NCBI GenBank assembly: GCA_025362795.1
Contig: JANYFE010000081.1
Span: 1 to 35,375, forward strand
Source: Rhodobacterales bacterium
GTDB taxonomy: Bacteria; Pseudomonadota; Alphaproteobacteria; Rhodobacterales; Rhodobacteraceae
Direction of reading: 5' to 3'
Length of the DNA stretch: 35,375 nt
Shown here piece after piece: positions 2,667 through 31,643 of this stretch. A model generated the notes under the pieces. The model saw nothing but the letters and a program-made list of their open reading frames with translations, did no database searches and was not told where the DNA came from. The position numbers and the translations under genes are program-made. Positions within the stretch are counted from its first letter, which is position 1, and every line of letters begins with the position of its first letter.

Positions 2667-2679
2667 AGTCTTAACATTA

Positions 2680-2778
2680 GGGCACCTCGATAAATTCACG
2701 AAATCCAACAAAATGGCGCCTCAAGTAACTGATTTTATTTGAATCATACTTCGTCTGGAGCGATAAATAGAGGTGCCC
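2680..2778. repeat. MITE-like element, 99 bp, 9-bp inverted ends, ATTA duplication
   Basis: GGGCACCTC (2680-2688) and its exact reverse complement GAGGTGCCC (2770-2778) bound a 99-bp A+T-rich segment. The similarity extends inward to about 13 of 16 positions (GGGCACCTCnATnnAT). The tetranucleotide ATTA lies directly outside both ends (2676-2679 and 2779-2782), as expected for a 4-bp target-site duplication. There is no coding capacity. It sits in the convergent gap between the gene ending at 2666 and the SNF2 gene ending at 2868. It is most likely a non-autonomous derivative of an insertion sequence; the parent family is not identifiable here. Confidence 0.6.
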
Positions 2779-2867
2779 ATTAGTCAGTCCCGTCCTTCGC
2801 GTGTCTGCTGCCGACCACTTCGCCGAGACGTATGGTTCTGGCATGTGGCGTACCTCTCGCTACACTC

Positions 2868-5800
2868 TTAGCCGCCTTCAGGCGCGACAAAGCGTAGGCT
2901 CACATGCATCAGGCTGCGCGGATGGGACTGAATGGCTGCGGCAATGGCCGCTCCGGTAAGCTTGATGCGCGTCTGGGCCATAAGAACGGCCAGCGTCGCG
3001 CGGCGTTCGTCGGCTTCGACCTGACCGCGCAGGGCATTGACCATGCTTTGGTTGTCCACCCTGCCGCGCGCCGCAGCGCGGTTGCGGAACACTTGGGCCA
3101 GCGTCCCGCTTTCCGCTTCGATCACTTTCTTGCGGGCGGTCCATGCCGTTATCGCGTTGCGCAGATCCTCGCTTCGCAAACCCCTCAGCTCGGCGTCGAT
3201 CGCGCTGACGTGTTGGCTGCAGACCGCCGCCGCCGGAGTAAGCAGTCTTTGCATCCGGCCTTGAATGCGGTTTTTGTCGTCCGGATCGGGCCTTGCGCGC
3301 AGCAGCATTGCGGTCTGTCGTTGATCAAGCGGGTGCCAGCCTTCCTTGGTCAGGACCGAGGCCATGGCTGAAAATCGGGTGGGCATCAGGGATTGCATCC
3401 AGCGGTGGTCGGCGGCAAGGCCTTCGTCCAGCCGCGCCATATAGCTTTGCCGAGCCGTGGCTCCGAACCAATCGAGGGCCGCGGCAAATTCCTTTGCAAC
3501 CCCGGAATGCGGCGATTGGAGGGGGTAGCTGGCCGCAAGAGTGACCACAATCGGCTGACCGTCCCAAGCCAGCGCCGGATGGGTTGCGCCGACCCTGATA
3601 ACCAACTCGCCCTGCGGCTGGACGGAGAAGTTCGGGCCGCCGAAGCCCAGCCAGCCTTGGCACAGCCCGTCGTGAATGCTGTCGCCATGGTCAAAGAAAC
3701 GCAGGTCGCGCGTTTGGGTGCCGGCGGCATTGAACTGCACAAAGCGGTGGGGCGGCACCGCCATATGTTTGCGCCGCACCAGCAGCGCCACCTTGTCATC
3801 CCATTCGTGGCCTTGTGCCATATCGGTCAGCAGGAAGGGCGGTTCGGTTTTTCCAGACGCATACCAAAAGCCCGAATACCGGCGCGGCGGATCGGATTTG
3901 TCGGGGCGGCCGGGTTCATAGAGAAAACCGCCCGCTTTGGCGCAGGCACCCAGCCAGTCGTCATTCGCCGCTTCGACCCGCTCTGCCGCGCTGGTCTCCT
4001 GCTCATCGGCAAGATGCAGGCGATCTGCGATGTCGCCGACGCGGTCCGCCAATGCCTGCACCTGCGCGCTGGACAAAGGCGCGAAATGGTCAAGGTGCGA
4101 GACAAGGCCGCGTCCGGCCCATGTTGCATTCAGGTCGGACAGGCGTGCCAAGGCTGCGCCTTTGCCGGTCTCGGGACGGGTCAGAAGCTGGGCAATCAGT
4201 TGGTTGACCTCGGCCCAGATCTCTTCCGAGACCGGAGGCAGGGGGCGGTCAAACACCCCCAGCGCGCCAAGGGCGTTTGACAGCCCCTCTTCTGGCGAGC
4301 CGCGCATGACCAGCCGCCAAAGGCGGATGCGTGCGGGCATCTGCTGGCCACGACGTGCGGCACGGATCGAGGCCTGGCTAAGCCGGTCGATCCGCCCGAT
4401 CAGCTGATCCACGGCCTGCGGGTCCCAGGGCATGCTGTAAAAGATCATGTTGCGGGCGCTGTGTTGAAGGTTCAGCCCGGCTTGAATCCAGTCGCCGATC
4501 AACAGGATGCGCGCGGGGCCCTGAACAAAGGGTTCGATCGCTTCTTGCATCGCGCGGATGTCTTCAAAGCTGCTTTCGCTGGCCGCCGTGGTCCGGCGCA
4601 GGGCCGCGATACCGTATTGGGCCAAGTCAGGAAAGTAGCGAGGCAAGACGGTTTGCAGCATGTCGATGGTGCCCGCATCCCCCGCCACGATGACAATCTT
4701 CTCCGGCGCGCGGGCGGGTTTCCCGGTGTTTTCGCGGTCCTTTTCGGCACCAAAGATGCCTGCAAGAATGTCCGTCAAAGCCTCGAGCCGGGAATCTCCG
4801 AAATCTTCCAACGCGTCTTTGCGCACCTGCACCATACCCGGAACCGTGCGTTCCAGCCGGTCGATGGCGTCGCGCACCGAGCGGCGCGAGCGTAGCAAAC
4901 CGCGCACTGTGGTCCAGAGTGCGGCATCAAGGCTGGTGCCGCTTCCCCCATCACCTCGGGTGCGCCCTGCAATAAGCGTCTGGATCAACCTCAGACGGCC
5001 GATTTCTGAGGCAGTCGGGTCAAACAGGCACAGTTGGTTTTCGCGGGCAGGGAAATAGGCCCCCCAATCCGCCCGTGTCTGCCGGGTGATGCGCCGGGTC
5101 AGCGCGTGGCAGCGGTAAGTGATGGCCCCTTCGTTGGAAAGGTCGGCCGAGGGCAGGCCAACCAGCGCCTGCGCGGCTTGCAGTTCCCGTTGTTCGATAA
5201 AAGCCGCGGCGGACAGGCCCACATCTTGGGCCAGACGGGCCTTTTCCGGCTCCAAGAGCCTAAAGATAATGTCGCGCCAAACCGGATCGCCCAGCCGCGG
5301 CGTGGCCGACAACACCAGCAGCTGGCGATAGGCCGCTTCGTCGTTGCGGCTTTCGTCAGCCTTTTGGCTAAGGCGGTCGAGCACTTCGCGCGGCAGGGAT
5401 TGCGGCTCGTCGATCAACAGCATGTGCTGGCGCACCGGGTCCAGCCAGTCGGGATGATCGGCAATGTCCCGGGGCCGCAGCAAAAGTGCGCTGGCCGTGC
5501 GGTGGCGCGCGGCGGGATGGTCATTGTCGGCGCGCTCAAGCCCGGCGGCCCCGGCCTCAAGCCAAGCCTGCATCCGGGCGCGGTCGGTGTCATCGACGAC
5601 ATGGCCGAGGATATGCCCCCGGGTCCAAAGCTCTTCGTGCCACTGCGCCAATAGGCGTTCGGGAGCGACAATGGCGGTTTGATGGGCGGGGTCGACGCTG
5701 CGCAGCGCGTTCAGCACCATGATCGCTTGAATGGTTTTGCCAAGCCCCACCTCGTCGGCGATCAGATGTCGAATGCGCTGATCCGACAGGATATGGGTGA

Positions 5801-5945
5801 CGGTGGCCAGTTGGAACGGCAAGGGTTCGGCGGCGACGCCAAAGGTCGCCCCCATGGCCAGCGCCCCGCGCTCGGCCCTGCGGCGCAGGGCATGGGCGGT
5901 GGCAATGAAGACGTGGTAGGGATCAAAGCTGTGCAGATCAGACAT
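2868..5945 (-). CDS. SNF2-type helicase, DrmD-like
   Basis: A 1025-residue SF2 translocase of the SNF2/RapA type. The Q-like block PLPFQLATVTHIL (41-53) precedes motif I DEVGLGKT (64-71, Lys70). Motif II is LLIDEPQSLP, with Asp179-Glu180 kept but DEPQ in place of the usual DEAH. Motif III is LSATPR (212-217). Motifs V-VI are seen in IQAGLNLQH and QLIGRIDRLSQ, so both RecA lobes are intact. About 450 further residues have no recognised domain. Class 1 DISARM systems encode an SNF2 helicase (DrmD) of similar length beside DrmA and DrmB, and here both are 6 kb away, so DrmD-like is the best label; direct orthology is inferred. Its ATG (5943-5945) overlaps the upstream stop by 8 nt (ATGTCTGA), so translation is coupled to the 1031-aa gene. 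Confidence 0.85.
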   Translation of the reverse strand: MSDLHSFDPYHVFIATAHALRRRAERGALAMGATFGVAAEPLPFQLATVTHILSDQRIRHLIADEVGLGKTIQAIMVLNALRSVDPAHQTAIVAPERLLAQWHEELWTRGHILGHVVDDTDRARMQAWLEAGAAGLERADNDHPAARHRTASALLLRPRDIADHPDWLDPVRQHMLLIDEPQSLPREVLDRLSQKADESRNDEAAYRQLLVLSATPRLGDPVWRDIIFRLLEPEKARLAQDVGLSAAAFIEQRELQAAQALVGLPSADLSNEGAITYRCHALTRRITRQTRADWGAYFPARENQLCLFDPTASEIGRLRLIQTLIAGRTRGDGGSGTSLDAALWTTVRGLLRSRRSVRDAIDRLERTVPGMVQVRKDALEDFGDSRLEALTDILAGIFGAEKDRENTGKPARAPEKIVIVAGDAGTIDMLQTVLPRYFPDLAQYGIAALRRTTAASESSFEDIRAMQEAIEPFVQGPARILLIGDWIQAGLNLQHSARNMIFYSMPWDPQAVDQLIGRIDRLSQASIRAARRGQQMPARIRLWRLVMRGSPEEGLSNALGALGVFDRPLPPVSEEIWAEVNQLIAQLLTRPETGKGAALARLSDLNATWAGRGLVSHLDHFAPLSSAQVQALADRVGDIADRLHLADEQETSAAERVEAANDDWLGACAKAGGFLYEPGRPDKSDPPRRYSGFWYASGKTEPPFLLTDMAQGHEWDDKVALLVRRKHMAVPPHRFVQFNAAGTQTRDLRFFDHGDSIHDGLCQGWLGFGGPNFSVQPQGELVIRVGATHPALAWDGQPIVVTLAASYPLQSPHSGVAKEFAAALDWFGATARQSYMARLDEGLAADHRWMQSLMPTRFSAMASVLTKEGWHPLDQRQTAMLLRARPDPDDKNRIQGRMQRLLTPAAAVCSQHVSAIDAELRGLRSEDLRNAITAWTARKKVIEAESGTLAQVFRNRAAARGRVDNQSMVNALRGQVEADERRATLAVLMAQTRIKLTGAAIAAAIQSHPRSLMHVSLRFVAPEGG

Positions 5946-8900
5946 GGGGCATCATCCTGTCCGCCGCAGCACGTTCGGCCCGGCCCAGTCGCAGCGCGAC
6001 ATAGCGAATTGCCCGTGCAGTGTGGCGATCGGACAAGAGCCGCGCCAGATGGTCACGCCAGGCTTCGGTTTCCAGCAGTTGGTTGGGGGCAAGCCACAGC
6101 AGCAGTCCGCTCTTCAGCACCTGTGGTCCGACCCAGTCGATCCCGGCGGTTCGGCTGATATCCATGTGGCACCGGGTCAACAGGCTGACCAGATCATCAT
6201 CGGACAGCCGGGCATAGGTCGTCGCTTGCAAGGCTTCCCGACGGCTTTCGGGCAAGATCAGGTGCCGGAATGGCGACTGCGCTTGCAGGGTCCAGCTGCG
6301 GTCTGACAGTCTTTGCCAGCGATCGGCGGGAGAATAAGCATCGCTTTCCCCAAGCATTGGTTCGCCGCGAAGTTCAAGGCTTGCCGACAGATCGGCATAG
6401 GCCGCATCCACCGCTGCATCTAGCAGCGCCGCCTCTTCTTCGGTCAGCGCCGGTCCGGGCGCGCGATCAGATGGTTTGAAAGATGCCAACGCATGAGCAA
6501 AGCGTTGGGTCAGGGCATCTAGCAAGAGTGGCTGGTCTTCATGCGCGATCTGGGGAAACTCGGGGCCCAAGGCCAGCCCATCGGCCGCAGCACCTTCGGC
6601 CATCTGGCGGGCAAGGCTGTCGGGGCGGCGGCGGTCCTGTGCTTCGGCGGACAGCCAGTCTTGGCCACAAAGGGCTACAAGAAGGCTGTCTTCAAGAAAC
6701 CGCACAATCTCCGTGCGCCGCGCATCAACCAGAAAGCTTGACGCCTCGGCCGACGTCCAGGCTACCAGCGCCTCGCAAAGTGTTGCCAGCCCGTGTTTGT
6801 CGCCAATCGGATCAACCGAACGGGCCAAAGCCAAGGGCGCGGGCTGGGCTGACTGACCGAAAAGCAGGGCCTTGCCCTCGATCAACCCAGCCCGCAGAGC
6901 CGCAAGGCCGGGCACATCGGGCAAATAAAGCCGAATGTCGTCCACAGCTTCGGGATGTTTGGCACCATCTTGGCTCAATAGCGGGGCCAGCGCCCGCGCG
7001 CCTAGACCCGGCCCGATAATCGCCCCATCCCTAGTCGTATCTTCGTCCCCATCTTCTTCGTTATCAGCGCGCCAAGCGATTTGCCCCGGTACGCGGTCTA
7101 GCTCTTTTGGTCGCCGGGGCAGCGGGAATGTAAACTCTCCCAGCCCGGGCACTTTGACGGTCAGGGTCCACCATGCCTCTTCATAGGCGGCGGCCTGATA
7201 GGCCGCGGCGCGCAGCTCTTCCAATTCGGGGGCGGCAAAGGTCAGGCGGGCGGGCAGGCCAGGCAGGGCGAAGTCTTGGCGGGCAAGTACTGCACCGTTG
7301 CGGGCCAAACCGATTTGCAAGATGACCGGGCCAAGCACAACCGGACTTGCGAAAGACAAGACCAAGGCCCCCGACCTCAGGTCAGCAAGGCTGGGCTGCT
7401 CGGGACGCGCATTGCAGGCAAAGGCACGCGGGGCAGCGGATGGGTCGGAGTAGGGAACGATTTCCCAGGTTTCCGCCAAGCCGCTGACCTGTCCGCCTGC
7501 CTGCAAATGCAGCGCGATGGCGCCGTCAGAGGCCGGCAGAATTGCAACATCGCCAAGCGCCATGACCGTCTCCACGCTAGCCGCGGTCGCGCCGGGTTTG
7601 CCAAGGCTGACCTGCAGTCCCTCACACATCGCCCGCAGGAAAAGCGGCGTGTCGGCGGGGGGCATCAGGCGGGTGCCGTCACGGACGATTCGACCCGCAC
7701 AGGCAAACTCGGCCAGATGCGAGTTGGCCAAACGCACCCCCGCTTCGGTCAGGGCTATGCGGCAGGTGCTGGCCTCCGCCACCCAGGCCAAAATGCCGTT
7801 TGGGCAGTCCAAAACCTGCGCCCCGGCGGGCCTTGCCGGGCCGTCCGGGCGGTCTTGCAGGATTTGCAGCACCTGCTCGCCGGGGTGCACCACATCGTTT
7901 CGGCCAAGCGCCGCCAAAAGCCCGCCTGTTTCGGCCCAGCGAAAAACCGAGGGCAGTGCGGGGGTCAGGGCCGCCAGAAGATCTTCCGCGCTGTCAGAGC
8001 GGCCTGAAAGATGAATAGTGGCGGGCGCAAACGCGCGCCCGATGTCGGGCAGGGCCAGGATGGCCCCCTGTAGAAAGTCGCGCAGAAACACCCGAGTTTG
8101 GGCCTGCCCTGCAATGGTCAACAGCGCGCTTTGGCTGTCGGGGACCGCTTCGCCTGACTTGGGCCCCTGCAGCCAAAGCCCATTCAACACGGGTATGCCC
8201 CCACCATCACCCCCAGTCCGGGAAAAGACCGAGACGGAGGCCAGCCACGTCGCTCTTGGGGGCATTGCGGCGAATTTGCGGGACGGGTTGCGCAGCACGC
8301 GGCGCGCCTGACGCAAGACCTGGCGGCATTCGGCATCCATCCGGATATCCCGCCCGATCCGCGCCAGCGCCCGGGATTCCAGCCGGGCCGCACTTTCCTC
8401 GCCAGTCAGCAGGCTGCGCCCCAGGGCAATGGCCAGCGTCCGGTCTTCCAGCCAGTCCGACAGCCGCCCGGACCACAGCCCCCCGGCGATGCCGACCAGC
8501 CGTTGGTAGAACTCGTCGTCTTCAAGACCCAGTCCGCCCATCTGCGCCACCTTGCCAAGCGCGGCGGCCAAGGGGCGGTGTATTTCCAGCGGCGCCAGCG
8601 CGTTGCGGATCGGCCAAGCGATGTTGCTGTAGTTGCGGGCCCAATCGCTGCGGTGTGGCTTGGGCGTGCCAAGCCGCTGGCTAAGCCGTTCAAACAGCGC
8701 GCGGACGGCCAAACGATCGGCCCCTGATATCACCACCCCCAAATCGCGCGACAGACGGGGCCAGAATTCGGTGCCCGTGCCGCGATAGCCATAGCCGGTT
8801 TCGGTGATCGCCACGGCGAGCGGCAGGGTTGCATTGGGCCAGCGCGCCGGTGCAATGCCTTCTATCCGGGCATGTGTGCCGACCAGGCGGAGCATTTCGG

Positions 8901-9033
8901 CCAAAGCCTCCGGGTCGAGCCCATGTTCGATAAGGAAGACCGGATCGGTGCTGCGCTGGCTGCGCAGGGCCTGAAATTGCGCAACAAGGGCGTGGTCAAA
9001 CTGTCTGAGCAACTCTAACGCAGGACCAAACAT
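5938..9033 (-). CDS. Large unknown protein coupled to the SNF2 helicase
   Basis: A 1031-residue protein from ATG 9031-9033; an in-frame GTG at 9037-9039 would add two residues. No helicase, nuclease or methylase motif is visible. Near the N-terminus, ETGYGYRGTGTEFWPRLSRD (about 78-97) and YSNIAWPIRNALAPLEIHRP form conserved-looking aromatic blocks that resemble, in style only, large uncharacterised proteins of defence islands. The middle (about 280-620) is rich in beta-strand-like segments. An acidic patch (DNEEDGDEDTTRDG) follows, then a helical C-terminus. Its stop overlaps the start of the SNF2 gene by 8 nt, so the two products are probably made in fixed ratio and may form one complex, for example a target-recognition subunit loading the translocase. 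That role is inference. The gene is divergent from the helicase-DrmA-DrmB operon. Confidence 0.8.
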   Translation of the reverse strand: MFGPALELLRQFDHALVAQFQALRSQRSTDPVFLIEHGLDPEALAEMLRLVGTHARIEGIAPARWPNATLPLAVAITETGYGYRGTGTEFWPRLSRDLGVVISGADRLAVRALFERLSQRLGTPKPHRSDWARNYSNIAWPIRNALAPLEIHRPLAAALGKVAQMGGLGLEDDEFYQRLVGIAGGLWSGRLSDWLEDRTLAIALGRSLLTGEESAARLESRALARIGRDIRMDAECRQVLRQARRVLRNPSRKFAAMPPRATWLASVSVFSRTGGDGGGIPVLNGLWLQGPKSGEAVPDSQSALLTIAGQAQTRVFLRDFLQGAILALPDIGRAFAPATIHLSGRSDSAEDLLAALTPALPSVFRWAETGGLLAALGRNDVVHPGEQVLQILQDRPDGPARPAGAQVLDCPNGILAWVAEASTCRIALTEAGVRLANSHLAEFACAGRIVRDGTRLMPPADTPLFLRAMCEGLQVSLGKPGATAASVETVMALGDVAILPASDGAIALHLQAGGQVSGLAETWEIVPYSDPSAAPRAFACNARPEQPSLADLRSGALVLSFASPVVLGPVILQIGLARNGAVLARQDFALPGLPARLTFAAPELEELRAAAYQAAAYEEAWWTLTVKVPGLGEFTFPLPRRPKELDRVPGQIAWRADNEEDGDEDTTRDGAIIGPGLGARALAPLLSQDGAKHPEAVDDIRLYLPDVPGLAALRAGLIEGKALLFGQSAQPAPLALARSVDPIGDKHGLATLCEALVAWTSAEASSFLVDARRTEIVRFLEDSLLVALCGQDWLSAEAQDRRRPDSLARQMAEGAAADGLALGPEFPQIAHEDQPLLLDALTQRFAHALASFKPSDRAPGPALTEEEAALLDAAVDAAYADLSASLELRGEPMLGESDAYSPADRWQRLSDRSWTLQAQSPFRHLILPESRREALQATTYARLSDDDLVSLLTRCHMDISRTAGIDWVGPQVLKSGLLLWLAPNQLLETEAWRDHLARLLSDRHTARAIRYVALRLGRAERAAADRMMPHV

Positions 9034-9036
9034 AAT

Positions 9037-9066
9037 CACCCAAATCTGTTTGAGTCAGTTTGGGTG
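9037..9066. promoter_or_regulatory. Operator-like dyad between the two divergent transcripts
   Basis: CACCCAAA (9037-9044) and TTTGGGTG (9059-9066) are a perfect 8-bp inverted repeat with a 14-nt centre. The symmetry extends inward (ATCTG against CAG) with one extra base. The left arm touches the start of the minus-strand gene. The dyad covers the place where its -10 region or transcription start should lie if TTGACA at 9080-9085 (minus strand) is the -35. This geometry fits a repressor or autoregulator that could control both halves of the locus. No regulator gene is apparent in the adjacent genes. Confidence 0.5.
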
Positions 9067-9085
9067 GCGCGCGGAAACTTGTCAA
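9057..9085 (-). promoter_or_regulatory. Candidate promoter for the minus-strand pair
   Basis: The minus strand reads a perfect TTGACA at 9085-9080. After a 17-nt spacer comes a poor -10 (CAAACT, 9062-9057). The position, about 25-50 nt before ATG 9033, is right for the 1031-aa protein and SNF2 pair. The weak -10 and its overlap with the dyad suggest regulated or activator-dependent expression, which is inference. Confidence 0.35.
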
Positions 9086-9156
9086 TAAGCTACGAAAAAA
9101 GCTTGATTTTCGCCCATGGGCTGTATCCAGTGCATATTGTTCCCGCACTCGCCGGT

Positions 9157-9179
9157 CAGCCCGGCCGAGGCCGGGGCTG
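9157..9179. promoter_or_regulatory. G+C-rich hairpin in the leader of the helicase operon
   Basis: CAGCCCGGCC (9157-9166) and GGCCGGGGCTG (9169-9179) pair over 10 base pairs with one bulged base and a 2-nt centre. It lies 23 nt upstream of ATG 9202. Neither strand has a T-run after it, so it is not an ordinary intrinsic terminator. It may be an mRNA leader structure or a second protein-binding dyad. If the earlier GTG at 9064 is the true start, it would be inside the coding region. Confidence 0.35.
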
Positions 9180-9201
9180 GTATGATATTGTTTGGCGGTC
9201 G

Positions 9202-11730: not shown

Positions 11731-14700
11731 GAGATGACACCGCACGCCAGTTAATCGTCAACCGTCTGCATGAAGATCTGATTGGCCCGCTGGACGGCGC
11801 GCAGGAGATTTTTAATGACCGGCCGACCGACAGGTATCTGACCGGAATGCTGTTCCCACCCCGCACCGCAATCGCCCAGATCGAAAATGACGAGGCCGAG
11901 GCGGCAGGCGTTGATAGCGATACGTCGGTCCAGGACGCCGCAAGTCCGTTTTCATCAGCTCTGCGGCCGTCTTCTGCCGGGCTGTCCTTTGCGGTCATGG
12001 CTTTGGGGGCACGTCCGGCGGCCGTCGATGTCTTTATTTCAGCTGGGGTCTACGTTGCCGCTGACGCTGCTTTGGGGAAGGGCAAAGCGGCGACTAAGGG
12101 GGCGAGCAAGGTGGAAGGCCGGGCCCGGGTTTGGCACCGCGCCGAGGTCACCTTCGAAGACACTTTGCCCATCGGCGAGATTGCCGCTAAAGGCGGGGTG
12201 CGGCGTTTGGACGGTGCAGCACTTGGCATCAATGGGATGCAGCTTTACATCCGCGCCGCCCAGATTGCCGGGGGGCCGGTCCTGGTGACCTTGGCTGTGT
12301 CAAATCTGCACCTGATTTCCAGCGGCACTGATCCTGACGAACAGGTGTTTTTTCAGGTCCAACTGATCGCCCGCCCGGCACCGGGGACGCGGTTCTGCGA
12401 AAAACCCGCTTCCTTGCGGCAAGTCGATGTCGAGGACGACGACCTTGCCGCCGCCGCGTTGATCTATCGCGATGTACGCGACTATGTGGTGGGCCATACT
12501 TGTGCCGCGCGGTTCGTCGAAGAGGGGGGCGAGGTCACGGAGTTGGGCACCGACTGGCTGCCCACGGCCATTGTGCGGAAACCGCGCGAAACTGGCGATC
12601 CGATCTTTGACGCGCTGACCAAAGCCGGGCAGGGAGAGGGACAGGATGGGCCGCTGGATGCCAAATGGCTGTCAGAGGCCCCAGCTGATCAGATGCTGGC
12701 CGGGCTTGCCCAGCTTGTGGCACTGTATGAAACTTGGATCGATGCCGAGGGGGTCAAAGGCCAGGCCCTGAGAGACCCTGCGTTGCGCGCCCGGTTCCTG
12801 GTGCACGCGGCCACTTGTCATGCCACTGCGGGACGTATCCGGGCGGGTATTGTCCTTTTGGGCCATGATCCCCATGCCTTGGCAGCGTTTAGGCTGGCCA
12901 ATCGGGCGATGTGGCTACAAGACCGCTGGAAAAAGGACCGCCAAGACCGCAAGGACCGGCTGACTTGGCGGCCCTTTCAGCTGGCTTTTGTGCTGTTGAC
13001 GCTTTGTTCGGCCAGCTCGGGCACCGATCCTGACCGCGAAGTGATGGACCTGCTGTGGTTCCCAACGGGGGGCGGCAAGACTGAGGCTTATCTGCTATTG
13101 ACCGCCTATGTGATCTTCCTGCGACGGTTGCGCGCAGCGGGTGGGCCTGAGGGGGCCGGGGTCACGGTTTTCATGCGCTACACCCTCCGGCTTTTGACGA
13201 TCCAGCAGTTCCAGCGTGCCGCGGCGGTGATCCTTGCCTGTGATCTGTTGCGCAGAAGTTCCGACCTTACGGGCGCTATACAACTGCCCGGCCATTTTGC
13301 CACCGATGAGCCGATTGCGATTGGGTTGTGGGTGGGCGCGGAATCCGTGCCCAACAGACTGGCCGAAGCGATTGAGGCCCTGACCCGCGAAAGTCTCGGC
13401 GATCAGCCTGCCTCAAACCCACGCCGCCTGACACGCTGCCCCCAGTGCAATGGGTTGCTGCATTGGGCGGCGAATGACGCCAAGACCGACCTGCAGGTGA
13501 CCTGCCGCAGCGCGCGCTGCAGCCTAGCAGGCGCGCCCTTGCCGGTGGTGACGGTGGACGATCTGATCTATCAGCGCCTGCCCGCCCTGATGATCGGTAC
13601 CGCAGACAAATACGCCCAACTTGCCCGAGAGCCGAGGACGGGAAAGCTGTTCGGTCTGGGCACGAACCACGCCCCGCCCGACCTTATCATACAAGATGAA
13701 TTGCACCTGATCTCGGGGCCTTTGGGCACCATCTCGGGGCTTTATGAAATCGCCATTGACGAGTTGTGCAGCCATCAGGGCAACCGGCCCAAGGTTATCG
13801 GTTCAACGGCCACCATCCGCCGCGCCGAAACACAAATCCGCGCCCTGTTTGACCGCAAGGCCGCGCAGTTTCCGCCGCCCGGTCTGGACCACGGCAATTC
13901 GGGGTTTGCCGCCACCGATGAAAGCGATCCAGGTCGGCTTTATGTTGGTGTTACCACGACCGGCCGGTCGGCCAAGTTTACCTTGCAGGCGGTCATGGCC
14001 TCTTTGATGCAGGCAGCTGCCAACTCACAGATTCCAGCAGCACAGGCAGATGGCTATTGGACACTGGTAGCCTATTTCAACGCTTTGCGGGAACTGGGCG
14101 GCGCGCTGACGCTGGCGCGCGACGACGTTGGCCGGTCAATCAAGCAATATGCCCAAAGGAGACCCGATGAAGATGAGCGTGAGCTGCCGCCCCCGGTCGA
14201 ACTGACCAGCCGGATCAGCGCGTCCCAGATCAACGAAATCCTGGACCGGCTGGATCAGCCGCGCGGCCATGCCGATTGTGTGTCGACGGTATTGGCCAGC
14301 AACATGATCTCGGTCGGCGTCGATGTGGCGCGGCTGGGGGTGATGGTGGTCAACGGTCAGCCAAAGACGATTGCCGAATATATCCAGGCCACCAGCCGGG
14401 TCGGGCGCGCCGCCATTCCCGGGTTGGTTGTATCGATTTGCAACGCCAACAAGCCGCGCGACCGCAGCCGCTATGAAAGCTTTCAAAACTGGCACCGTGC
14501 GCTTTATCGCGATGTCGAGGCAACCGGCGTCACCCCCTTTGCCGAACGCGCCCGCGAACGTGCCTTGCATGCGGCCTTTGTCATCTGTGCCCGCCACTTG
14601 ATCCCCGAGCTGCGCCACAGCCCTTCGGGCGCGATGGCGGTGCGACCCGAGCTTGAGGAGATCCTTGGTCGCATCGTGGCACGTGCGCGCTCGGTTCAAC

Positions 14701-14930
14701 AAAGCCCCGCCGAAACCGCAGGGGCCGAGGGAGAGCTACGGACCTTCCTTGATCTTTGGGTCAACCGGCCGGACCTGACCGAATACTGGGACAAGTGGAA
14801 GAACAGCCTGCTGACTTCTGCCGAAGAGGCGCAGGACAAAAGCCGCACGGCTGGGCTTTTGCCGCGCCCGACCCCCAATTCCCTGCGCTCGGTCGAGGCG
14901 TCAACAGCCTTTGCCCTGCGCGACTATTGA
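11727..14930 (+). CDS. drmA: DrmA, DISARM SF2 helicase
   Basis: 1067 residues from GTG 11727, overlapping the upstream stop by 4 nt, with GGAGGG at 11715-11720 as ribosome-binding site. Motif I is WFPTGGGKTEAYL (Lys451) and motif II is LIIQDELHLISGP (Asp657, Glu658, His660). A GSTATIRRAE block is motif III. Motifs V-VI are SVGVDVARLGVMVV and ATSRVGRA (889-894). A four-cysteine segment (CPQCNGLLHW then CRSARCSL, roughly 571-595) may bind zinc. The TGGGKTEAY, DELH and TSRVGR signatures are those of DrmA. In characterised DISARM, DrmA works with DrmB on invading DNA and the complex is stimulated by single-stranded ends. Here DrmB follows directly. About 430 residues precede motif I, as is usual for the family. 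Confidence 0.88.
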   Translation: MRDDTARQLIVNRLHEDLIGPLDGAQEIFNDRPTDRYLTGMLFPPRTAIAQIENDEAEAAGVDSDTSVQDAASPFSSALRPSSAGLSFAVMALGARPAAVDVFISAGVYVAADAALGKGKAATKGASKVEGRARVWHRAEVTFEDTLPIGEIAAKGGVRRLDGAALGINGMQLYIRAAQIAGGPVLVTLAVSNLHLISSGTDPDEQVFFQVQLIARPAPGTRFCEKPASLRQVDVEDDDLAAAALIYRDVRDYVVGHTCAARFVEEGGEVTELGTDWLPTAIVRKPRETGDPIFDALTKAGQGEGQDGPLDAKWLSEAPADQMLAGLAQLVALYETWIDAEGVKGQALRDPALRARFLVHAATCHATAGRIRAGIVLLGHDPHALAAFRLANRAMWLQDRWKKDRQDRKDRLTWRPFQLAFVLLTLCSASSGTDPDREVMDLLWFPTGGGKTEAYLLLTAYVIFLRRLRAAGGPEGAGVTVFMRYTLRLLTIQQFQRAAAVILACDLLRRSSDLTGAIQLPGHFATDEPIAIGLWVGAESVPNRLAEAIEALTRESLGDQPASNPRRLTRCPQCNGLLHWAANDAKTDLQVTCRSARCSLAGAPLPVVTVDDLIYQRLPALMIGTADKYAQLAREPRTGKLFGLGTNHAPPDLIIQDELHLISGPLGTISGLYEIAIDELCSHQGNRPKVIGSTATIRRAETQIRALFDRKAAQFPPPGLDHGNSGFAATDESDPGRLYVGVTTTGRSAKFTLQAVMASLMQAAANSQIPAAQADGYWTLVAYFNALRELGGALTLARDDVGRSIKQYAQRRPDEDERELPPPVELTSRISASQINEILDRLDQPRGHADCVSTVLASNMISVGVDVARLGVMVVNGQPKTIAEYIQATSRVGRAAIPGLVVSICNANKPRDRSRYESFQNWHRALYRDVEATGVTPFAERARERALHAAFVICARHLIPELRHSPSGAMAVRPELEEILGRIVARARSVQQSPAETAGAEGELRTFLDLWVNRPDLTEYWDKWKNSLLTSAEEAQDKSRTAGLLPRPTPNSLRSVEASTAFALRDY

Positions 14931-14946
14931 ATGTGAGTGTGCCCCC

Positions 14947-16803
14947 ATGACCGGAATCGGCAAGATCAGACGCAGCCAGGTGATCGGTACCTACGGCCCT
15001 GGCGCGATCATCGACTTTCGCAGCCCCGAAGGCGCGCCGATTTCGGCGGTTTCGGGTGGGCTTGAGCTGTGGGAAGAAGCAAAACTGGACCATCGTCAAC
15101 GCATCCACGAGGTGCGGTTGCAAGCCAGTCTCAAGGTGGATTTCTTCCACCAGCCGCCGGTGGGAAAATACAAGACCGCTGCCAGGGACGCCAAGGGTTA
15201 TGCCATCGAGGAAGACCGCGAACTGCCCGCCGTCCGTTTCCCCGAATGGTGTTTCTGCCCGTCCTGCGATCGTCTGAAACACATCCGCGACTGGGTCAGC
15301 GATCCGGCCAAGCCTGACCGTTGGTGCCCGGTTTGCTCGGGGCAAAAGGGCAAGCCCAAGCGGCAGTTTGTTGTGCCCGTGCGTCTGGTTGTTGCCTGCG
15401 AAGCCGGGCATCTGGACGAGTTTCCTTGGGATCGTTGGGTTGGCCATGCCGAAGGCTGCAAGCGGCGCGATCTGAAACTGGTCGGCGAGGCGGCCGGTCT
15501 GGCTGGCCTCGTTGTGAAATGTGACGGCTGCGGGGCCGAGAAATCCCTGGCCAAGGCTTACGGCCCCCATGCGCTCGAGCGGATCGGCCAAAGTTGCACC
15601 GGCCGCCGCCCTTGGCTGCCGCTGGCCCACCGCGAGGCCTGTGGCCATGCCGCCGCCGTCATCCAGCGCGGCGCGTCCAATGCCTGGTTTCCCATCGTGG
15701 AAAGCGCCATTGACATCCCGCCCTTCAGCGATGAATTCACGCAATTCATTCGTCAGGAACAGTATTGGAAGGCCTTCAAGGCGCTGGGCGATCCGGCTCA
15801 TATCCGCGGCGTGATCGAGGATAACGAGTTGATGGAGGAATGGCACGGTCCCCCCATGACCCTGCGCGAGATGGAGGCGCAGATCCGCCGCATTTTTGAC
15901 CGCGATCAACAAGGACCGGAAACCGACCTGCGCGCCGAAGAATACGCCCGGCTCGTCGCCCCTCCGACCCAAGGCGTCACGGACCGCAACTTCAAGATCG
16001 AGGTCGAGGCCATCCCGGATGGGCTGGCGGGGTTTGTGGGCCACCTTGTTCGGGTTGAACGCCTGCGCGAGGTGCGGGTTCTGACCGGTTTTACCCGCCT
16101 GACCGCGCTGGGCCAGGAAAGACAGGCCCGCGAACCAGCCAGCCTGTCTGGCAGCAAGAAAAAAAACTGGTTACCCGCTGTCGAAGTATTTGGTGAGGGG
16201 ATATTCGTCACCCTTGACCTTGTGCGCCTGCGCGAATGGGAGCAGTGGCCTCCGGTGTGTGCGCGCATCGCGGCGCTGAACGCGCAGCTGGAACAGGCGG
16301 CCAAAGCGCGGGGCGGAACGCCGGTGGCCCCTTGGCCACTGACGGCCCGGCGTGTCCTGATCCATACCCTATGTCACGCCGTCATTGACCGTCTGTCCCT
16401 TGACTGCGGCTATTCCAGCTCTTCGGTCCGCGAGCGTCTCTACTCCGGGCCCGAGGGCAGCGACATGGCCGGGTTCCTGATCTACACCTCGGCCCCCGGC
16501 GCCGACGGCACACTGGGCGGCTTGTCGCGCGAAGGGCGCGCCGAACGCTTTGGCGCGACCCTGCGCAAAGCGATTGACGACACGCGCTGGTGCTCATCTG
16601 ACCCCTTGTGCTCGGACGGGCTGGCGGCCCTGTTCGACAGCGGCAACCACGCGGCTTGTCATGCTTGCTGCTTCCTGCCTGAAACCGCTTGCGAGCATTT
16701 CAATCAATACCTTGACCGCGCCTTGGTGACCGGCACGCCCGAAGAACAGTCGCAACCTAGCGAAACGTCTCTCTCCCTTGCATTCTTCCCGTCAGGATAT
16801 TGA
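14947..16803 (+). CDS. drmB: DrmB, DISARM zinc-ribbon and DUF1998 protein
   Basis: 618 residues from ATG 14947, 16 nt after the DrmA stop. The first residues, GIGKIRRSQVIGTYGPGAII, are the hallmark N-terminus of DrmB. Cys104, Cys107, Cys127 and Cys130 form a zinc ribbon. CEAGHLDEFPWDRW (from Cys151) and CDGCGAEK add further zinc ligands. The C-terminal DUF1998 region includes HTLCHAVIDRLSLDCGYSSS, RERLYSG, a DGTLGGL turn, and the cysteine cluster CSSDPLC with CHACCFLPETACEHFNQYLD. DUF1998 often sits at the end of SF2 helicases; in DISARM it is on this separate protein, which partners DrmA. I read it as the second half of a bipartite helicase complex. Confidence 0.88.
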   Translation: MTGIGKIRRSQVIGTYGPGAIIDFRSPEGAPISAVSGGLELWEEAKLDHRQRIHEVRLQASLKVDFFHQPPVGKYKTAARDAKGYAIEEDRELPAVRFPEWCFCPSCDRLKHIRDWVSDPAKPDRWCPVCSGQKGKPKRQFVVPVRLVVACEAGHLDEFPWDRWVGHAEGCKRRDLKLVGEAAGLAGLVVKCDGCGAEKSLAKAYGPHALERIGQSCTGRRPWLPLAHREACGHAAAVIQRGASNAWFPIVESAIDIPPFSDEFTQFIRQEQYWKAFKALGDPAHIRGVIEDNELMEEWHGPPMTLREMEAQIRRIFDRDQQGPETDLRAEEYARLVAPPTQGVTDRNFKIEVEAIPDGLAGFVGHLVRVERLREVRVLTGFTRLTALGQERQAREPASLSGSKKKNWLPAVEVFGEGIFVTLDLVRLREWEQWPPVCARIAALNAQLEQAAKARGGTPVAPWPLTARRVLIHTLCHAVIDRLSLDCGYSSSSVRERLYSGPEGSDMAGFLIYTSAPGADGTLGGLSREGRAERFGATLRKAIDDTRWCSSDPLCSDGLAALFDSGNHAACHACCFLPETACEHFNQYLDRALVTGTPEEQSQPSETSLSLAFFPSGY

Positions 16804-16807
16804 TTTT

Positions 16808-18487
16808 ATGGCAAAGATGGTTCCGTCCGAGATACCAGAGCTTTTGCTGGCCGACCCCAAGCGACGGGCAGAACGGCATGTATATCAATCGCTTGACCGT
16901 GAGTTGGGGGGCGATTTCACCGTCTATTGGTCGCGCCCCTGGCACCGCTTTCGTCCTGACGGCACAGGCCGCGATGGCGAGGTTGATTTCGTTGTGGCCC
17001 ATGCAGATCTAGGGGTTCTGGCGATCAAGGTTAAGGGCGGCACGGTGTCTTGCAACGATCAGGGCCAGTGGGTTTCGGTTTCGGGCAGCGGCACGCCCTA
17101 TAACCTTAAGCGCAGTCCAGTGACCCAGGCGATGGAAGGCAAGCACGAGCTGAACCGCAGGCTTAAAAGGCTCGCGGCCCTGTCAAGACGGACCCTTAAC
17201 ATGTGTCATGGTGTGGTTCTGCCCGACAACAGCCGCCCCACGAAAGACCTGGGCGCCGACGCCCCGTTGGAGCTCTTTGCCTTTGGCAATGAAATTGGTG
17301 CGGGTAAACTGGGGGACTGGGTGCGCGAGGCGCTGATGCGGGGTGCCAAGGCCTGCGATCCGCTTGGCCCTGAGGGCATGAGGGCGCTCCACGAAATCAT
17401 TGCGGCCGAATTTGAACTGCGTCCGCATCTGGCCAGCGCGCTGGCCCATGACATGAAGAAGATCGAACTTCTGACCGCCGAACAGGCTTATGTGTTGGAA
17501 TCGCTGGCTGGAAATCCGCAAATGGCCATTGCCGGGGCGGCTGGCACTGGCAAGACCCTGCTTGCGCTGGAAAAGTCCATGCGTTGCGCCAAAGCAGGCG
17601 ATCGCACCTTGCTCACGTGCTTTAACAACGCGCTTGCGGCGCATCTGAAGGGACTTGTCGGCGAGGTAGAGAACCTGACAATCGCCGGGTTTCATGAACT
17701 TTGCGGCAAGGTGGCCCATCAGGCCAAAGTTTCGGTGCCCGATCTCCAAGGCCCGGTATTCTATAGCAAGACCCTGCCCAATGCGTTGGAACAAGCGATG
17801 CAGGCCCGCCCTGACCTTGCCTATGACGCGATCATAGTCGATGAAGGCCAGGACTTTGACCGCGAATGGTATGACACCCTGCGGCTGTCTTTGAAAGACA
17901 TGGACGCCAGCACATTCCATGTCTTTTTTGATGACAACCAGCGGATCTATGGCGGCGCGCAAAGCTTTGTCGATGAACTGCCAAAACTGTCGTTCCGCTT
18001 GATCCGCAATCTGCGCAATACCCGCGCGATTCACCGCTGCCTGACTCCCTGGTATGACGCGCGCGGCGCGATTTCGGCCGGGCCCGCCGGGCAGCCCGTC
18101 GATTGGATCGAGGTCAAATCCAAAGAGCAAGCCTATACCAACGCCAGCGCCTTTGTGGCCGATCTTATCAAGTCCGCGCAGCTGCAAGCGTCAGATATCG
18201 CGATCCTGACCGGGGGCGCACGCGATAAATGCGGGCTTTTCTCCCACGCGCAAATCGGCGGTGCGGTGCCGATCTCTGCCTCGGACCTGCGCGGTAAAAA
18301 CCGCATCTGGTGTGACACCGCGCGACGTTTCAAGGGTTTGGAAGCGAAATGCGTGGTGCTTGTCGATATCGATCAGCTGATTGATGATGAACTGATCTAT
18401 GTCGCCCTAAGCCGCCCGTCGCTTTTGCTTCGGGTGATCGGCCTGCCTGCGGACATATTGCGGCTAAAGGGCGGGTTAGGCAGCTAA
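16808..18487 (+). CDS. NERD-domain SF1 helicase with altered nuclease motif
   Basis: 559 residues from ATG 16808, 4 nt after the DrmB stop; a TTG ten codons earlier is less likely. The N-terminal NERD (nuclease-related) domain shows AERHVYQSL (21-29) and RDGEVDFVV (55-63, Asp60). The expected IEVKGG is here IKVKGG (73-78), so the acidic residue of the ExK pair is Lys74. The helicase part has motif I GAAGTGKT (243-250), motif II IIVDEGQDF (Asp345-Glu346), FFDDNQRIYGG, NLRNTRAIH, RFKGLEAKCVVLVD and LIYVALSRP, all apparently intact. It would be an ATPase/helicase whose NERD part may bind but not cut DNA. It is the last gene of the operon and converges on the C5 methylase 16 nt away. Confidence 0.82.
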   Translation: MAKMVPSEIPELLLADPKRRAERHVYQSLDRELGGDFTVYWSRPWHRFRPDGTGRDGEVDFVVAHADLGVLAIKVKGGTVSCNDQGQWVSVSGSGTPYNLKRSPVTQAMEGKHELNRRLKRLAALSRRTLNMCHGVVLPDNSRPTKDLGADAPLELFAFGNEIGAGKLGDWVREALMRGAKACDPLGPEGMRALHEIIAAEFELRPHLASALAHDMKKIELLTAEQAYVLESLAGNPQMAIAGAAGTGKTLLALEKSMRCAKAGDRTLLTCFNNALAAHLKGLVGEVENLTIAGFHELCGKVAHQAKVSVPDLQGPVFYSKTLPNALEQAMQARPDLAYDAIIVDEGQDFDREWYDTLRLSLKDMDASTFHVFFDDNQRIYGGAQSFVDELPKLSFRLIRNLRNTRAIHRCLTPWYDARGAISAGPAGQPVDWIEVKSKEQAYTNASAFVADLIKSAQLQASDIAILTGGARDKCGLFSHAQIGGAVPISASDLRGKNRIWCDTARRFKGLEAKCVVLVDIDQLIDDELIYVALSRPSLLLRVIGLPADILRLKGGLGS

Positions 18488-18503
18488 GCGGTCAGTTTGC
18501 CCG

Positions 18504-20057
18504 TTACGCTTCGTGGGTGTCCGCTTTTGTGAGAGATGCGTAGATCAACGCTGCGATCTGGCGTGCCAAGAACGGTGGGACTGCATTTCCAACCTGGACG
18601 TATTGCTGTGTCCTGTTGCCGAGGAACAGGTAGTCGTCCGGGAAGGTTTGCAGCCGGGCGGCCTCGCGCACTGTCAGGCTGCGACACTGGACCGGATCAG
18701 GATGAATGAAGTAGTGCCCGTCTTTGGAGATGTGGCTGGTAACGGTTGTTGCTGCCTCATGGGACAACTGAACCCGGAAACGGTCGCTGAAGATACCGCT
18801 GTGCCAGTTCTTGTGGTCGGGGCTGAGCGCGAGGGGAAAATCTGCCGCCTTCGGGCTGTACTGGCGCTTTTCACCGAAGACCGCCGCGAAAAGGTAGCGA
18901 CCGAGATCTGACGCCATGTGCCCACGCGTTTCGTGCTGGGCAAGGGCCTGCAGTTCAGGTCGTTCGAGCCAACGCATCAGGTCGTCGTTGGAAGTCCCGT
19001 AGCATGCGGGCAGGCTCGCGTTCGCGCGATGCCCGGGCGAGCCTTTTTCCATGCGCTTCACAACATTGAGGAAAGCTTCCTTGAGAGCCTCATCTCCACT
19101 GTTCTTGGAAATGCTGGCCAGGATGTTTCCAGCCTCAACAACCTCGCGCTTCCAAGCAGCTGCGGAATCGACTGCGCGGCTGATACCGCTGCGAAGGGGC
19201 GGCATGTTTCCAATCGTTTCGCCGACTGTGCGTCTTGTGCCCGTGATACGAATGCTGGCGCCCGCCATTCGGTTGGCAAGGTCCGACCTGATGCCAACGA
19301 TGATGACCCGATGGCGGCGCTGTGGCACTCCAAAATCTTCGGCACGCACGATGAAGTCGGACGGCTTTTTCGGCTCCAGCAGCGTCGCCTTGCCGTCCGA
19401 AAGACGGATCGCCCGGAGTTCATAGTGGTGTGCATGCCCGGTGCCTAGCGAGGTCAAATCCTCCATCAGCATCTCGAAGACCATCCGGCTTTCGATTGTC
19501 GATGACAGCATGCCCTTTACGTTTTCCATCACGAAGGCGGCAGGGCGAAGTCGGTCCAGCACGCGGATGTACTCGCGGAATAGATAATGCCGCGCGTCCT
19601 CTTCCGGCACATATCCTATCTTTCCGTTGGCGCGGGCGCGCCCGACCAGCGAATAGGCCTGGCAGGGAGGGCCGCCGATCAGGATCGTGTCGTCGAAGTC
19701 TTTTCTCAGGCGGGCGATAACGCTATCGATTGCTTCGGCGGCAGGCTCAGTACCCAGTTCAAGGCAACGAGCCTCACTTGTGGCGTGATCCCACACAGCC
19801 GCGTCAACCGTAGACCAGTCCGGTTCTGCTGAATGGTCAGCATGGAAATCGACGTAAGCCTTCGGCATAGTTCCATGCCTTTCGGCATAAGCCCGAACAA
19901 ATGCGCGAAGGGTCAGCGTCCTGTGCGCCGATGTCTCCTTTTCGACCGAAATGCCGATTTGAAACGGAAAGTGCTCGCCCACACGCAGCGAAGCAAAGCC
20001 CTCACCCAACCCACCAGGCCCGGCAAACAGATCGACTATGCCGAAAGTGGCGGGCAA
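18504..20057 (-). CDS. C5-cytosine DNA methyltransferase, possible DrmMII counterpart
   Basis: 517 residues. The start is TTG 20055-20057, supported by GAGAGGA on the minus strand (20071-20065), 7 nt upstream. Motif I is DLFAGPGGLGEGF (9-21). Motif IV is GGPPCQAYS with nucleophile Cys132. Motif VI is MENVKG (Glu178). Motif VIII is PQRRHRVIIVG, and motifs IX-X end in QVGNAVPPFLARQI. About 110 residues between motifs I and IV are longer than in small enzymes. It transfers methyl groups to cytosine C5; the recognition sequence cannot be read. Class 2 DISARM carries a C5 methylase for self marking, and this gene lies against the DrmA-DrmB operon, so that role is plausible. No partner endonuclease is adjacent; a Vsr gene is divergent from it. 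Confidence 0.9.
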   Translation of the reverse strand: MPATFGIVDLFAGPGGLGEGFASLRVGEHFPFQIGISVEKETSAHRTLTLRAFVRAYAERHGTMPKAYVDFHADHSAEPDWSTVDAAVWDHATSEARCLELGTEPAAEAIDSVIARLRKDFDDTILIGGPPCQAYSLVGRARANGKIGYVPEEDARHYLFREYIRVLDRLRPAAFVMENVKGMLSSTIESRMVFEMLMEDLTSLGTGHAHHYELRAIRLSDGKATLLEPKKPSDFIVRAEDFGVPQRRHRVIIVGIRSDLANRMAGASIRITGTRRTVGETIGNMPPLRSGISRAVDSAAAWKREVVEAGNILASISKNSGDEALKEAFLNVVKRMEKGSPGHRANASLPACYGTSNDDLMRWLERPELQALAQHETRGHMASDLGRYLFAAVFGEKRQYSPKAADFPLALSPDHKNWHSGIFSDRFRVQLSHEAATTVTSHISKDGHYFIHPDPVQCRSLTVREAARLQTFPDDYLFLGNRTQQYVQVGNAVPPFLARQIAALIYASLTKADTHEA

Positions 20058-20124
20058 ATCAGTGTCCTCTCGAATTCAGATCATTGGCTGTATACCAGGT
20101 CCGACAGATGAAGCCAGGAGGCAA

Positions 20125-20616
20125 ATGACAGACATCGTCGACAGCCAGACCCGCTCCCGCATGATGTCAGGGATCCGTGGAAAGAACACGAAGCCCGAAC
20201 TGGCGCTCCGTCGGTCCCTTCACGCGCTCGGCTTGCGCTATCGTCTTCACGCGAAGGGCATTCCCGGCAAGCCGGACATCGTGATGCCGAAGTACCATGC
20301 CGTCATCTTCGTGCATGGTTGCTTCTGGCATCGCCACGCAGGCTGCCGCTACGCCACGGTTCCGGCAACGCGCCCCGAGTTCTGGGGGGCCAAGTTCGAT
20401 GCAAATGTGATGAGGGATGTAGCAGTTCAGTCCGCTCTTCGGGAGGCGGGCTGGCGAGTCGGAACTGTCTGGGAGTGCGCCCTTGGGACCGAGACCTCCG
20501 TTGCGCAAACACGGGAGATGGTGGCGGCATGGCTTCATGGCAGTGACGCTGTACTTGTGATCGGTGAGGTGGAGGCCCGAAATGCGCCATGCCCCAAACC
20601 TGATCATGCGTCGTGA
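20125..20616 (+). CDS. vsr: Very short patch repair endonuclease (Vsr), first copy
   Basis: 163 residues from ATG 20125, with AGGAGG at 20116-20121. Conserved Vsr blocks are SRMMSGIRGKNTKPELALRR (active-site-type Glu), GKPDIVMPKYHAVIFVHGCF (Asp and His), FWHRHAGC, FWGAKFDANVMRD and GWRVGTVWECAL. Vsr nicks 5' of the T in T:G mismatches made when 5-methylcytosine deaminates, so it normally accompanies a C5 methylase. Here it is divergent from the methylase at 18504-20057, with a 67-bp gap that must hold both promoters. All key residues seen in Escherichia coli Vsr (Glu25, Asp51, His64, His69) have counterparts. Confidence 0.93.
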   Translation: MTDIVDSQTRSRMMSGIRGKNTKPELALRRSLHALGLRYRLHAKGIPGKPDIVMPKYHAVIFVHGCFWHRHAGCRYATVPATRPEFWGAKFDANVMRDVAVQSALREAGWRVGTVWECALGTETSVAQTREMVAAWLHGSDAVLVIGEVEARNAPCPKPDHAS

Positions 20617-29653: not shown

Positions 29654-29867
29654 TGGTAAATTCTCCGAAAATTCAAACCGCTGACCGGCTGATTCCGGTG
29701 CTCTCTTGCATTCAATAGCACATTTGCAGTCCGTGCGACCCTTGAGGTGTCGCTCAGTGCTGGACGTAGGGGTCGGACTTGCCCCCAGCGGACTTTCACC
29801 GGCCTTTTTTGTGCGGCGGTTTTTGCTGTTTGTTTGTGAATTGTTCTTGTTCAGGGGCTCAAGTTCA

Positions 29868-29878
29868 GACACTGTGTC
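29868..29878. promoter_or_regulatory. Probable autoregulatory operator of the EcoRII-type methylase
   Basis: GACACTGTGTC is a perfect 5+1+5 palindrome, extended with one mismatch to TCAGACACTGTGTCAGA (29865-29881). It lies 55 nt before ATG 29933 of a methylase with an N-terminal helix-turn-helix. The GACA-N3-TGTC geometry matches, from memory, the operator bound by the related M.SsoII methylase. It is a good candidate for the site where the methylase represses its own gene. Confidence 0.5.
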
Positions 29879-29887
29879 AGAAAAAGT

Positions 29888-29908: not shown

Positions 29909-29932
29909 GCGATGCTGGGAGAGCGAGCAGAT

Positions 29933-31628: not shown

Positions 31629-31643
31629 GCCCGGGGTGAGTGG

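Follow-up and report, generated by a model that had tools for sequence, protein, structure and literature searches.

DISARM systems of classes 1 and 2, as reportedly defined by Ofir and colleagues in 2018, have separate genes for DrmA and DrmB and often a DNA methylase nearby, together with an SNF2 helicase in class 1 and a C5 methylase in class 2. These features are shared by a set of genes at positions 2868-20616 of a 35,375-base stretch of DNA (G000:C72:1-35375, hereafter the window) from the 3.84-Mb genome of a Rhodobacterales bacterium. The set differs from DISARM by the addition of a large protein of no known family (UNK2), a UvrD helicase with an extra N-terminal domain and a helicase carrying a NERD nuclease domain. 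The comparison of related loci shows that five genes (SNF2, UNK2, UvrD with a DruD-like N-terminal domain, DrmA, and DrmB) travel together, often with the NERD helicase and often near a C5 methylase gene. As judged from these sequences, the set is best read as a new variant of the DISARM family with a swappable sensor.

In the DISARM system of Serratia, DrmAB is autoinhibited, binds single-stranded DNA (ssDNA) with a 5′ overhang and has an ATPase activity lowered by 5-methylcytosine, and DrmC appears to be non-essential (Bravo et al. 2022; PMC9142583). Class 1 DrmA carries an N-terminal EVE-like domain (Bell et al. 2025; PMC12458937). The same paper defines the ARMADA, BRIGADE, and TALON systems and mentions many uncharacterised DISARM-like classes; in ARMADA the gene order is strict, the methylase is PglX-like, the YprA protein is fused to a Vsr-type nuclease and the UvrD-type helicase bears a RelE-like domain. 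In Druantia type III, DruH is the likely sensor, with helical ends and a core of three Ig-like domains at residues 257-748; it diverges more than its helicase DruE, and nuclease activity has been reported for it (PMC13192584, a 2026 preprint).

The locus of the window consists of two divergent arms, UNK2 followed by SNF2 leftward and UvrD, DrmA, DrmB, and the NERD helicase rightward. Beyond the latter lie a convergent C5 methylase gene and then a divergent vsr gene:

2868..5945, minus strand: SNF2/RapA-type helicase P0001, 1025 aa (PF00176, E 2.8e-8; PF00271)
5938..9039, minus strand: UNK2 (P0002), 1033 aa from a GTG start, proposed sensor (no library match; 45 homologous loci)
9040..9201, no strand: predicted divergent promoter region between the arms (from the starts of open reading frames, ORFs, in the window and in L011)
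9064..11730, plus strand: UvrD/superfamily 1A helicase P0003 with a DruD-like N-terminal domain, 888-aa ORF (PF00580, E 3.1e-25; PF13361)
11727..14930, plus strand: DrmA (P0004), YprA-family superfamily 2 helicase, 1067 aa (NCBIfam, PADLOC, and solved-structure matches)
14911..16803, plus strand: DrmB (P0005; DUF1998/MrfA Zn-binding), 630-aa ORF, separate gene after drmA (NF038324, PF09369, 7s9v_B)
16778..18487, plus strand: NERD nuclease domain plus superfamily 1 helicase P0006, 569-aa ORF (best PADLOC model, E 2.9e-49)
18504..20057, minus strand: C5 cytosine methyltransferase P0007, 517 aa (PF00145, E 4.6e-45; PADLOC DrmMII, E 6.5e-85)
20038..20616, plus strand: Vsr mismatch endonuclease P0008, companion of the C5 methylase (TIGR00632, E 9.2e-41; PF03852)

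All the genes listed in a preliminary description of the window are present where it had placed them, and family searches with hidden Markov models (HMMs) bore out every gene name except that of P0002. The latter had been described as a 1031-aa unknown; the protein is there, but its length is 1033 codons when counted from the GTG start. The proteins of the set include four helicase-type ATPases and one conserved protein of no known family. In detail, P0004 matches DrmA in PADLOC (E 6.9e-208) and the solved DrmA structure 7s9v_A (E 2.9e-133), while its match to the NCBIfam model DISARM_DrmAS (NF038325; 871 bits, E 1.2e-261) lies under the cut-off of 950. P0005 exceeds the DrmB cut-off (NF038324, 496 bits vs 240) and matches 7s9v_B (E 5.1e-85). 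With the longest ORFs taken, successive genes of an arm share 4-26 bases (8 bases for UNK2 and SNF2). The ORF start of a 94%-identical relative (L011) suggests that UvrD starts at an internal Met at about 9202, in which case 9040..9201 is a probable divergent promoter region. The extra N-terminal domain of the UvrD protein comprises roughly 250 residues. A tRNA-Gly was called by ARAGORN inside uvrD (window 10663-10736); it is probably a false call, because it has no Rfam match at the gathering score.

For the distribution of the set, the contigs of one genome per species (84,980 species) were scanned with a profile made from P0002 and three plasmid relatives. The scan yielded 45 UNK2 loci, that is, 32 DISARM-like, three hybrid (L041, L042, and L044), seven Druantia-like (L046-L049, L051, L052, and L055; sorted by gene order and ORF length, with a PADLOC scan of L047 only) and three unassigned ones (L050, L053, and L054). 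SNF2 comes after UNK2 in all 32 DISARM-like loci, and in 27 of them this arm is divergent from UvrD-DrmA-DrmB with the order kept. Among the 27 there are three irregular cases: in L036 the drmB ORF is short (468 aa) and lies at the end of a contig, in L029 the NERD helicase is divided between two ORFs, and L045 carries an additional UvrD. The remaining five loci are L043, with an internal deletion in UNK2; L012, in which DrmA stops at residue 605; L014, with a deletion of UvrD/DrmA/DrmB and 1406 N in the locus; L019, in which DrmA and DrmB were not found; and L024, which reaches a contig end. Since the order recurs in tens of genomes, the arrangement is not a product of chance. The preliminary description had given a six-gene order and proposed its recurrence as a check; the order does recur for the five core genes, the NERD helicase being present in 18 of the 32 loci and missing from one clade of ten.

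The set is carried by plasmids (L002 and L003, the SNF2 gene of L002 running into the end of the record) and by viral contigs, with six genes in L067 and five in L068, where the NERD helicase was not found. UNK2 homologues are rare and patchily distributed: with the window's own genome counted each time, they turned up in 5 of 295 genomes from the family, in 4 of 385 from the class and in 3 of 398 from the phylum. Two of the three other homologues in the class sample precede DruD and the third is a fragment. DrmA matches (E<=1e-60) occur in 9 of the same 385 genomes, with UNK2 in the window's own only.

Matrices of pairwise distances, one for each of the six proteins, are closely correlated (r 0.956-0.994; 18-34 loci per pair, uncorrected for shared descent), and none of 999 permutations reached values as high. 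L001, L014, L043, and L045 were left out of this comparison, as were DrmA proteins of <900 residues, which were also omitted from the DrmA tree. The family sets were made without low-scoring rows of UNK2, SNF2, and NERD and without the UNK2 and NERD rows of L029 and L043. In the DrmA tree of 44 proteins (midpoint root, for drawing only), one starred clade has 33 rows, of which 31 are associated with UNK2; the other two, L004 and L005, have the UvrD-DrmA-DrmB-NERD core without UNK2 and SNF2. DrmA-DrmB occurs on plasmids with other partner sets too, and the set of the window is therefore one variant among several.

An alternative to a single system is that independent modules merely lie side by side, that is, a DrmAB-UvrD-NERD core, an SNF2 and UNK2 module and an ordinary C5 methylase/Vsr cassette, with the divergent promoter as their sole link. 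The core without UNK2 and SNF2 in L004 and L005 is what such a view would expect, and so is L045, a natural chimera (2211-9843) in which a second UvrD-DrmA-DrmB, of Shinella type, comes after the UNK2-type UvrD, so that two cores are joined to one UNK2 and SNF2 arm. This locus suggests that the two arms can be exchanged. Because L045 groups with L005 on the DrmA tree, apart from the other UNK2 loci of the clade, the UNK2 label on that tree needs two changes, not one. In the hybrid loci (L007, L041, L042, and L044) UNK2 and SNF2 stand beside a NERD helicase and a large helicase of DruE type or unclassified, and elsewhere UNK2 alone adjoins DruD-DruE. Against the independence of the modules, UNK2 adjoins a YprA-family helicase in nearly every assigned context (the exceptions being L019, where no DrmA was found, and L014, where it is lost), and it therefore looks like the partner of this helicase. 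Furthermore, distances agree within the DISARM-like loci (r=0.980 for UNK2 vs DrmA; r=0.994 for UNK2 vs UvrD), and on the UNK2 tree one branch sets apart the DISARM-like proteins (33 rows) and another the Druantia-like ones (8 rows), with Shimodaira-Hasegawa-like approximate likelihood ratio test (SH-aLRT) supports of 97 and 100, respectively. A mere juxtaposition of modules is thus rather unlikely, and the variant of the DISARM family remains the preferred reading.

The contexts outside the DISARM-like loci reveal a link to Druantia. UNK2 is homologous to a protein of ~955 aa that stands immediately ahead of DruD and DruE in loci resembling Druantia type I (hhalign 99.95% over 745 columns; tblastn E 1e-12; best reciprocal hmmsearch E 3.9e-48 and 1.6e-39, with Z set to 100). 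For instance, PADLOC identifies DruD (E 1.7e-149) and DruE (E 0) in L047, and in the plasmid pNWAT01 of Nitrosococcus watsonii an annotated DruA precedes the ~955-aa gene. This protein occupies the DruB/DruC slot (DruA - ~955 aa - DruD - DruE). UNK2 shows no similarity (hhalign <2%) to the canonical DruB and DruC found in the same slot in Pseudomonas putida pKF715A. By homology, UNK2 is an unexpected component common to the DISARM-like set and Druantia. The two differ in that DruE is a fused YprA helicase where the window has DrmA and DrmB, in the presence of DruA and in the lack of SNF2. The best DruE match of P0004 has an E value of 0.003, vs 6.9e-208 for DrmA in PADLOC.

The hybrid loci, for which no name was found, share with the window the UNK2 and SNF2 pair, the NERD helicase and a DruD-like protein of ~340 aa homologous to the UvrD N-domain; in contrast, UvrD-DrmA-DrmB gives way to a large helicase of DruE type (DruE1, E 1.9e-270, as tested for L044 alone). 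The homology of the ~340-aa protein to the UvrD N-domain is shown by the best reciprocal hmmsearch E values (3.9e-20 and 5.2e-17, Z set to 100) and by hhalign (96%, vs <2% for the UNK2, DrmB, SNF2, and NERD profiles). This protein is linked only weakly to true DruD (E 0.002-0.08; hhalign 1.5-2.7%; PADLOC E 0.0074), and the UvrD N-domain itself matches DruD weakly as well (best E 0.002; hhalign 43-67%). No C5 methylase was found within 14 kb of UNK2 in the three hybrid loci of the scan.

UNK2 gave zero matches at E<=0.01 in PADLOC, Pfam, NCBIfam, and PHROGs. Its AlphaFold2 model, based on 40 sequences (mean predicted local distance difference test score, pLDDT, 77.8; predicted template modelling score, pTM, 0.51), consists of a predicted helical N-domain (residues 5-250), a beta-rich, partly Ig-like middle (264-721) and a helical C-domain (751-1028). 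The structural matches of the model are Ig-like sandwiches, mostly over residues 538-644, and this fold is a common one. Conservation is highest in the N-domain and lowest in the middle, and identity to distant members is 25-30% for UNK2 where it is 47-54% for DrmA. In one locus (L043, 9974-11015) the middle of UNK2 has been lost (residues about 239-910), and the other four genes look full length.

This layout recalls DruH (YjiT family) of Druantia type III, with helical ends and an Ig-like middle, and both proteins diverge faster than their helicase partners. Because of these two resemblances, UNK2 is a probable sensor by analogy with DruH. On the other hand, the similarity of UNK2 to E. coli YjiT in sequence did not reach significance, and PADLOC gave no match. 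In the comparison of the two by hhalign (<3%), the alignment is collinear over residues 21-139, and one of three profiles scored above all 60 shuffles (27.7 vs 25.5) while two did not. Kinship of UNK2 with DruH is accordingly put forward as a possibility. A wider view, tentative and on balance doubtful, is that UNK2 is the founder of a sensor family swapped between DrmAB, the DruD/DruE of Druantia type I-like loci and the hybrids, and a far relative of DruH. If so, DISARM-like systems and Druantia would share an infection-sensing layer besides the helicase, with the UvrD N-domain/DruD as adaptor.

The NERD helicase was found in 18 of the 32 DISARM-like loci, is undecidable in four (L012, L019, L024, and L036) and was not found within 2.2-2.7 kb beyond DrmB in the remaining ten, which compose one roseobacter clade of the DrmA tree. 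The ExK motif plays a role in NERD domains. Residue 84 of P0006 is Lys, and all 23 aligned relatives have there the Glu of this motif; the NERD nuclease of the window is for this reason probably inactive, unless Lys84 is a sequencing error. The substitution raises the question of whether the copy in the window is a decayed remnant of a system that is real elsewhere and no longer active here, as might also be suspected from the large lesions of the close relatives L012 and L014, where assembly faults are possible (L012 is a metagenome assembly and L014 has the 1406 N). However, the other ORFs of the window are as long as those of its relatives, and the nuclease may be dispensable, since one clade keeps the five genes without the NERD helicase. 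Decay is for these reasons unlikely.

The place of the NERD helicase and the region beyond it vary. In L022 (445-2157) an AIPR/AbiU-type gene stands in its place, and on the Azospirillum plasmid L002 (15069-15671) an annotated DarT-type ssDNA ADP-ribosyltransferase lies directly after it. Within the roseobacter clade that lacks the helicase, L079 (1-8001; same genome as L021) has a cassette convergent on drmB, in which a C5 methylase and Vsr are joined by ORFs of 542 aa (GHKL/MutL-like by eye) and 282 aa and by an SNF2 protein and an EcoRII-N protein of 144 aa, in that order; scans of the SNF2 and EcoRII-N proteins were confined to L021. Similar ORFs were seen by eye in L023, L026, L038, and L043. 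Six genomes have a methylase at a distance of about 12.6 kb to UNK2.

Of 31 DISARM-like genomes, 20 have a C5 methylase no more than 14 kb away from UNK2 (L026 left out; the limit was set after the distances were seen), compared with about 0.47 expected by chance and at most 5 in 200,000 simulations, an estimate for which gene counts were merged by hand. P0007 matches the PADLOC DrmMII model PDLC02649 as well as general type II methylase models, and its gene is convergent to the arm and not co-operonic with it. P0007-type enzymes are 72-75% identical in G006, G016, and G017, where DrmA is 49-50% identical, and 91% identical in G001, where DrmA is 97% identical. This discordance points to exchange of the methylase, that is, to an exchangeable partner and not a fixed member of the set. 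Vsr adjoins the methylase in the window, L003, L014, L019, L022, L033, L034, L079, L080, and L082, but not in L081, as judged only where the methylase lay inside the available sequence and not at its edge. In L003, L019, L033, and L034, the methylase, Vsr and an EcoRII- or MvaI-type endonuclease are found beyond SNF2 instead. Vsr is a repair partner of C5 methylases, and because of this it is unlikely to be an effector.

The preliminary description had seen in the locus a mixture of class 1 and class 2 DISARM without the PLD nuclease. The absence was supported: none of the four PLDc_2 matches of the genome lies on the contig of the window, so that DrmC was not found near, and in the genomes of 34 relatives none of the PLDc_2 matches listed is closer than about 15 kb to UNK2, with some flanks hidden by contig ends. 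SNF2 as a class 1 feature was not supported. P0001 shows weak matches to DpdE, BrxH, and DrmD, all far below the NCBIfam cut-offs; as DrmD it scores 87.6 bits (NF038317, cut-off 610), and DpdE is slightly higher (101.8 vs a cut-off of 500). The C5 methylase is weak as a class 2 feature because it is an exchangeable neighbour. Moreover, residue 6 of P0004 aligns with residue 136 of 7s9v_A, which means that the N-terminal ~130 residues of the Serratia DrmA are missing; the N-terminal EVE-like domain of class 1 DrmA is likewise missing from P0004. No Pfam match to an adenine methylase (DrmMI) was found among the ORFs scanned (P0001-P0008, P0009-P0012, P0014, and P0015), and DrmE is not among the PADLOC matches listed for P0001-P0008 (the best 25 for P0001, P0003, and P0007). 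A plain relative of class 1 or class 2 DISARM, in which SNF2 would be DrmD, P0007 would be DrmMII and the rest decoration, is very unlikely: DrmA and DrmB are clearly there, as is an SNF2 protein, P0007 matches the DrmMII model and DrmC is apparently non-essential according to Bravo et al., but P0001 fails the DrmD models, DrmMI was not found among P0001-P0008, the three annotated class 1 DrmA (L071, L074, and L075) fall outside the UNK2-associated clade, and the constant neighbours are SNF2, UNK2, and UvrD, not the methylase.

ARMADA type II, as described by Bell et al. (2025), resembles the set in combining a YprA helicase with a RapA-like and a GajB/UvrD-like helicase. Several features of ARMADA were not found in the window, where Vsr has a gene of its own, DrmA and DrmB are encoded apart from each other and no PglX occurs among P0001-P0008. 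As far as tested, the set matched none of the named DISARM classes or other YprA systems; such a match was the outcome that the preliminary description had set against its own proposal of an undescribed subtype. That proposal holds as far as the lack of a fitting class is concerned; the NERD helicase is not a constant member. No description of the gene set was found among the papers listed from the open-access literature; the supplements of PMC12458937 lie outside this search and may list it unnamed. We regard it with moderate confidence as an undescribed variant of the DISARM/YprA-helicase family.

It seems fairly probable that this variant is a conserved, horizontally moving anti-phage system which works along the following lines. 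The C5 methylase would mark host DNA. UNK2 would sense infection, either as a phage protein, as proposed for DruH of Druantia type III, or as a DNA-protein state, and would license the DrmAB helicase, which may load on 5′-overhang or ssDNA intermediates and be damped by methylation. The UvrD and SNF2 translocases, docked via the DruD-like domain and UNK2, would strip the phage DNA or unwind it, and in loci that have a NERD domain this would do the cutting. Where this domain is absent (10/32 loci) or mutated (the window), host or neighbouring nucleases might finish the work, in a situation comparable to that of the dispensable-looking DrmC in DISARM.

As it travels with a DISARM-type core and neighbours Druantia-type helicases, UNK2 is a candidate for DISARM sensing beyond DNA ends and methylation, and it gives DISARM and Druantia a second bridge in addition to ARMADA. 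The natural swaps (DrmAB, DruE, and hybrid) offer a test set for the sensing layer. UNK2 is also a recognisable marker gene for annotation tools, the four libraries searched giving no match to it.

Other genes of the window lie on both sides of the set. In the same island, at 22193-27301, a 1702-aa protein is encoded in which an N-terminal stretch, a RecQ helicase and a UvrD helicase are fused; its closest PADLOC model is DpdF (E 2.6e-113), and a relative is located near the system in L014. It is followed at 28643-30337 by an ORF with an exonuclease (RNase_T) and a BRCT domain and, at 29912-32882, about 9 kb from the system, by a restriction-modification cassette comprising a second C5 methylase, a Vsr (31125-31628), and an EcoRII-type endonuclease. 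On the opposite side, at 967-2666, there are two adjacent small ORFs, the second of which matches JukB (E 3.7e-14, 50.9 bits), and this pair is a possible further defence module.

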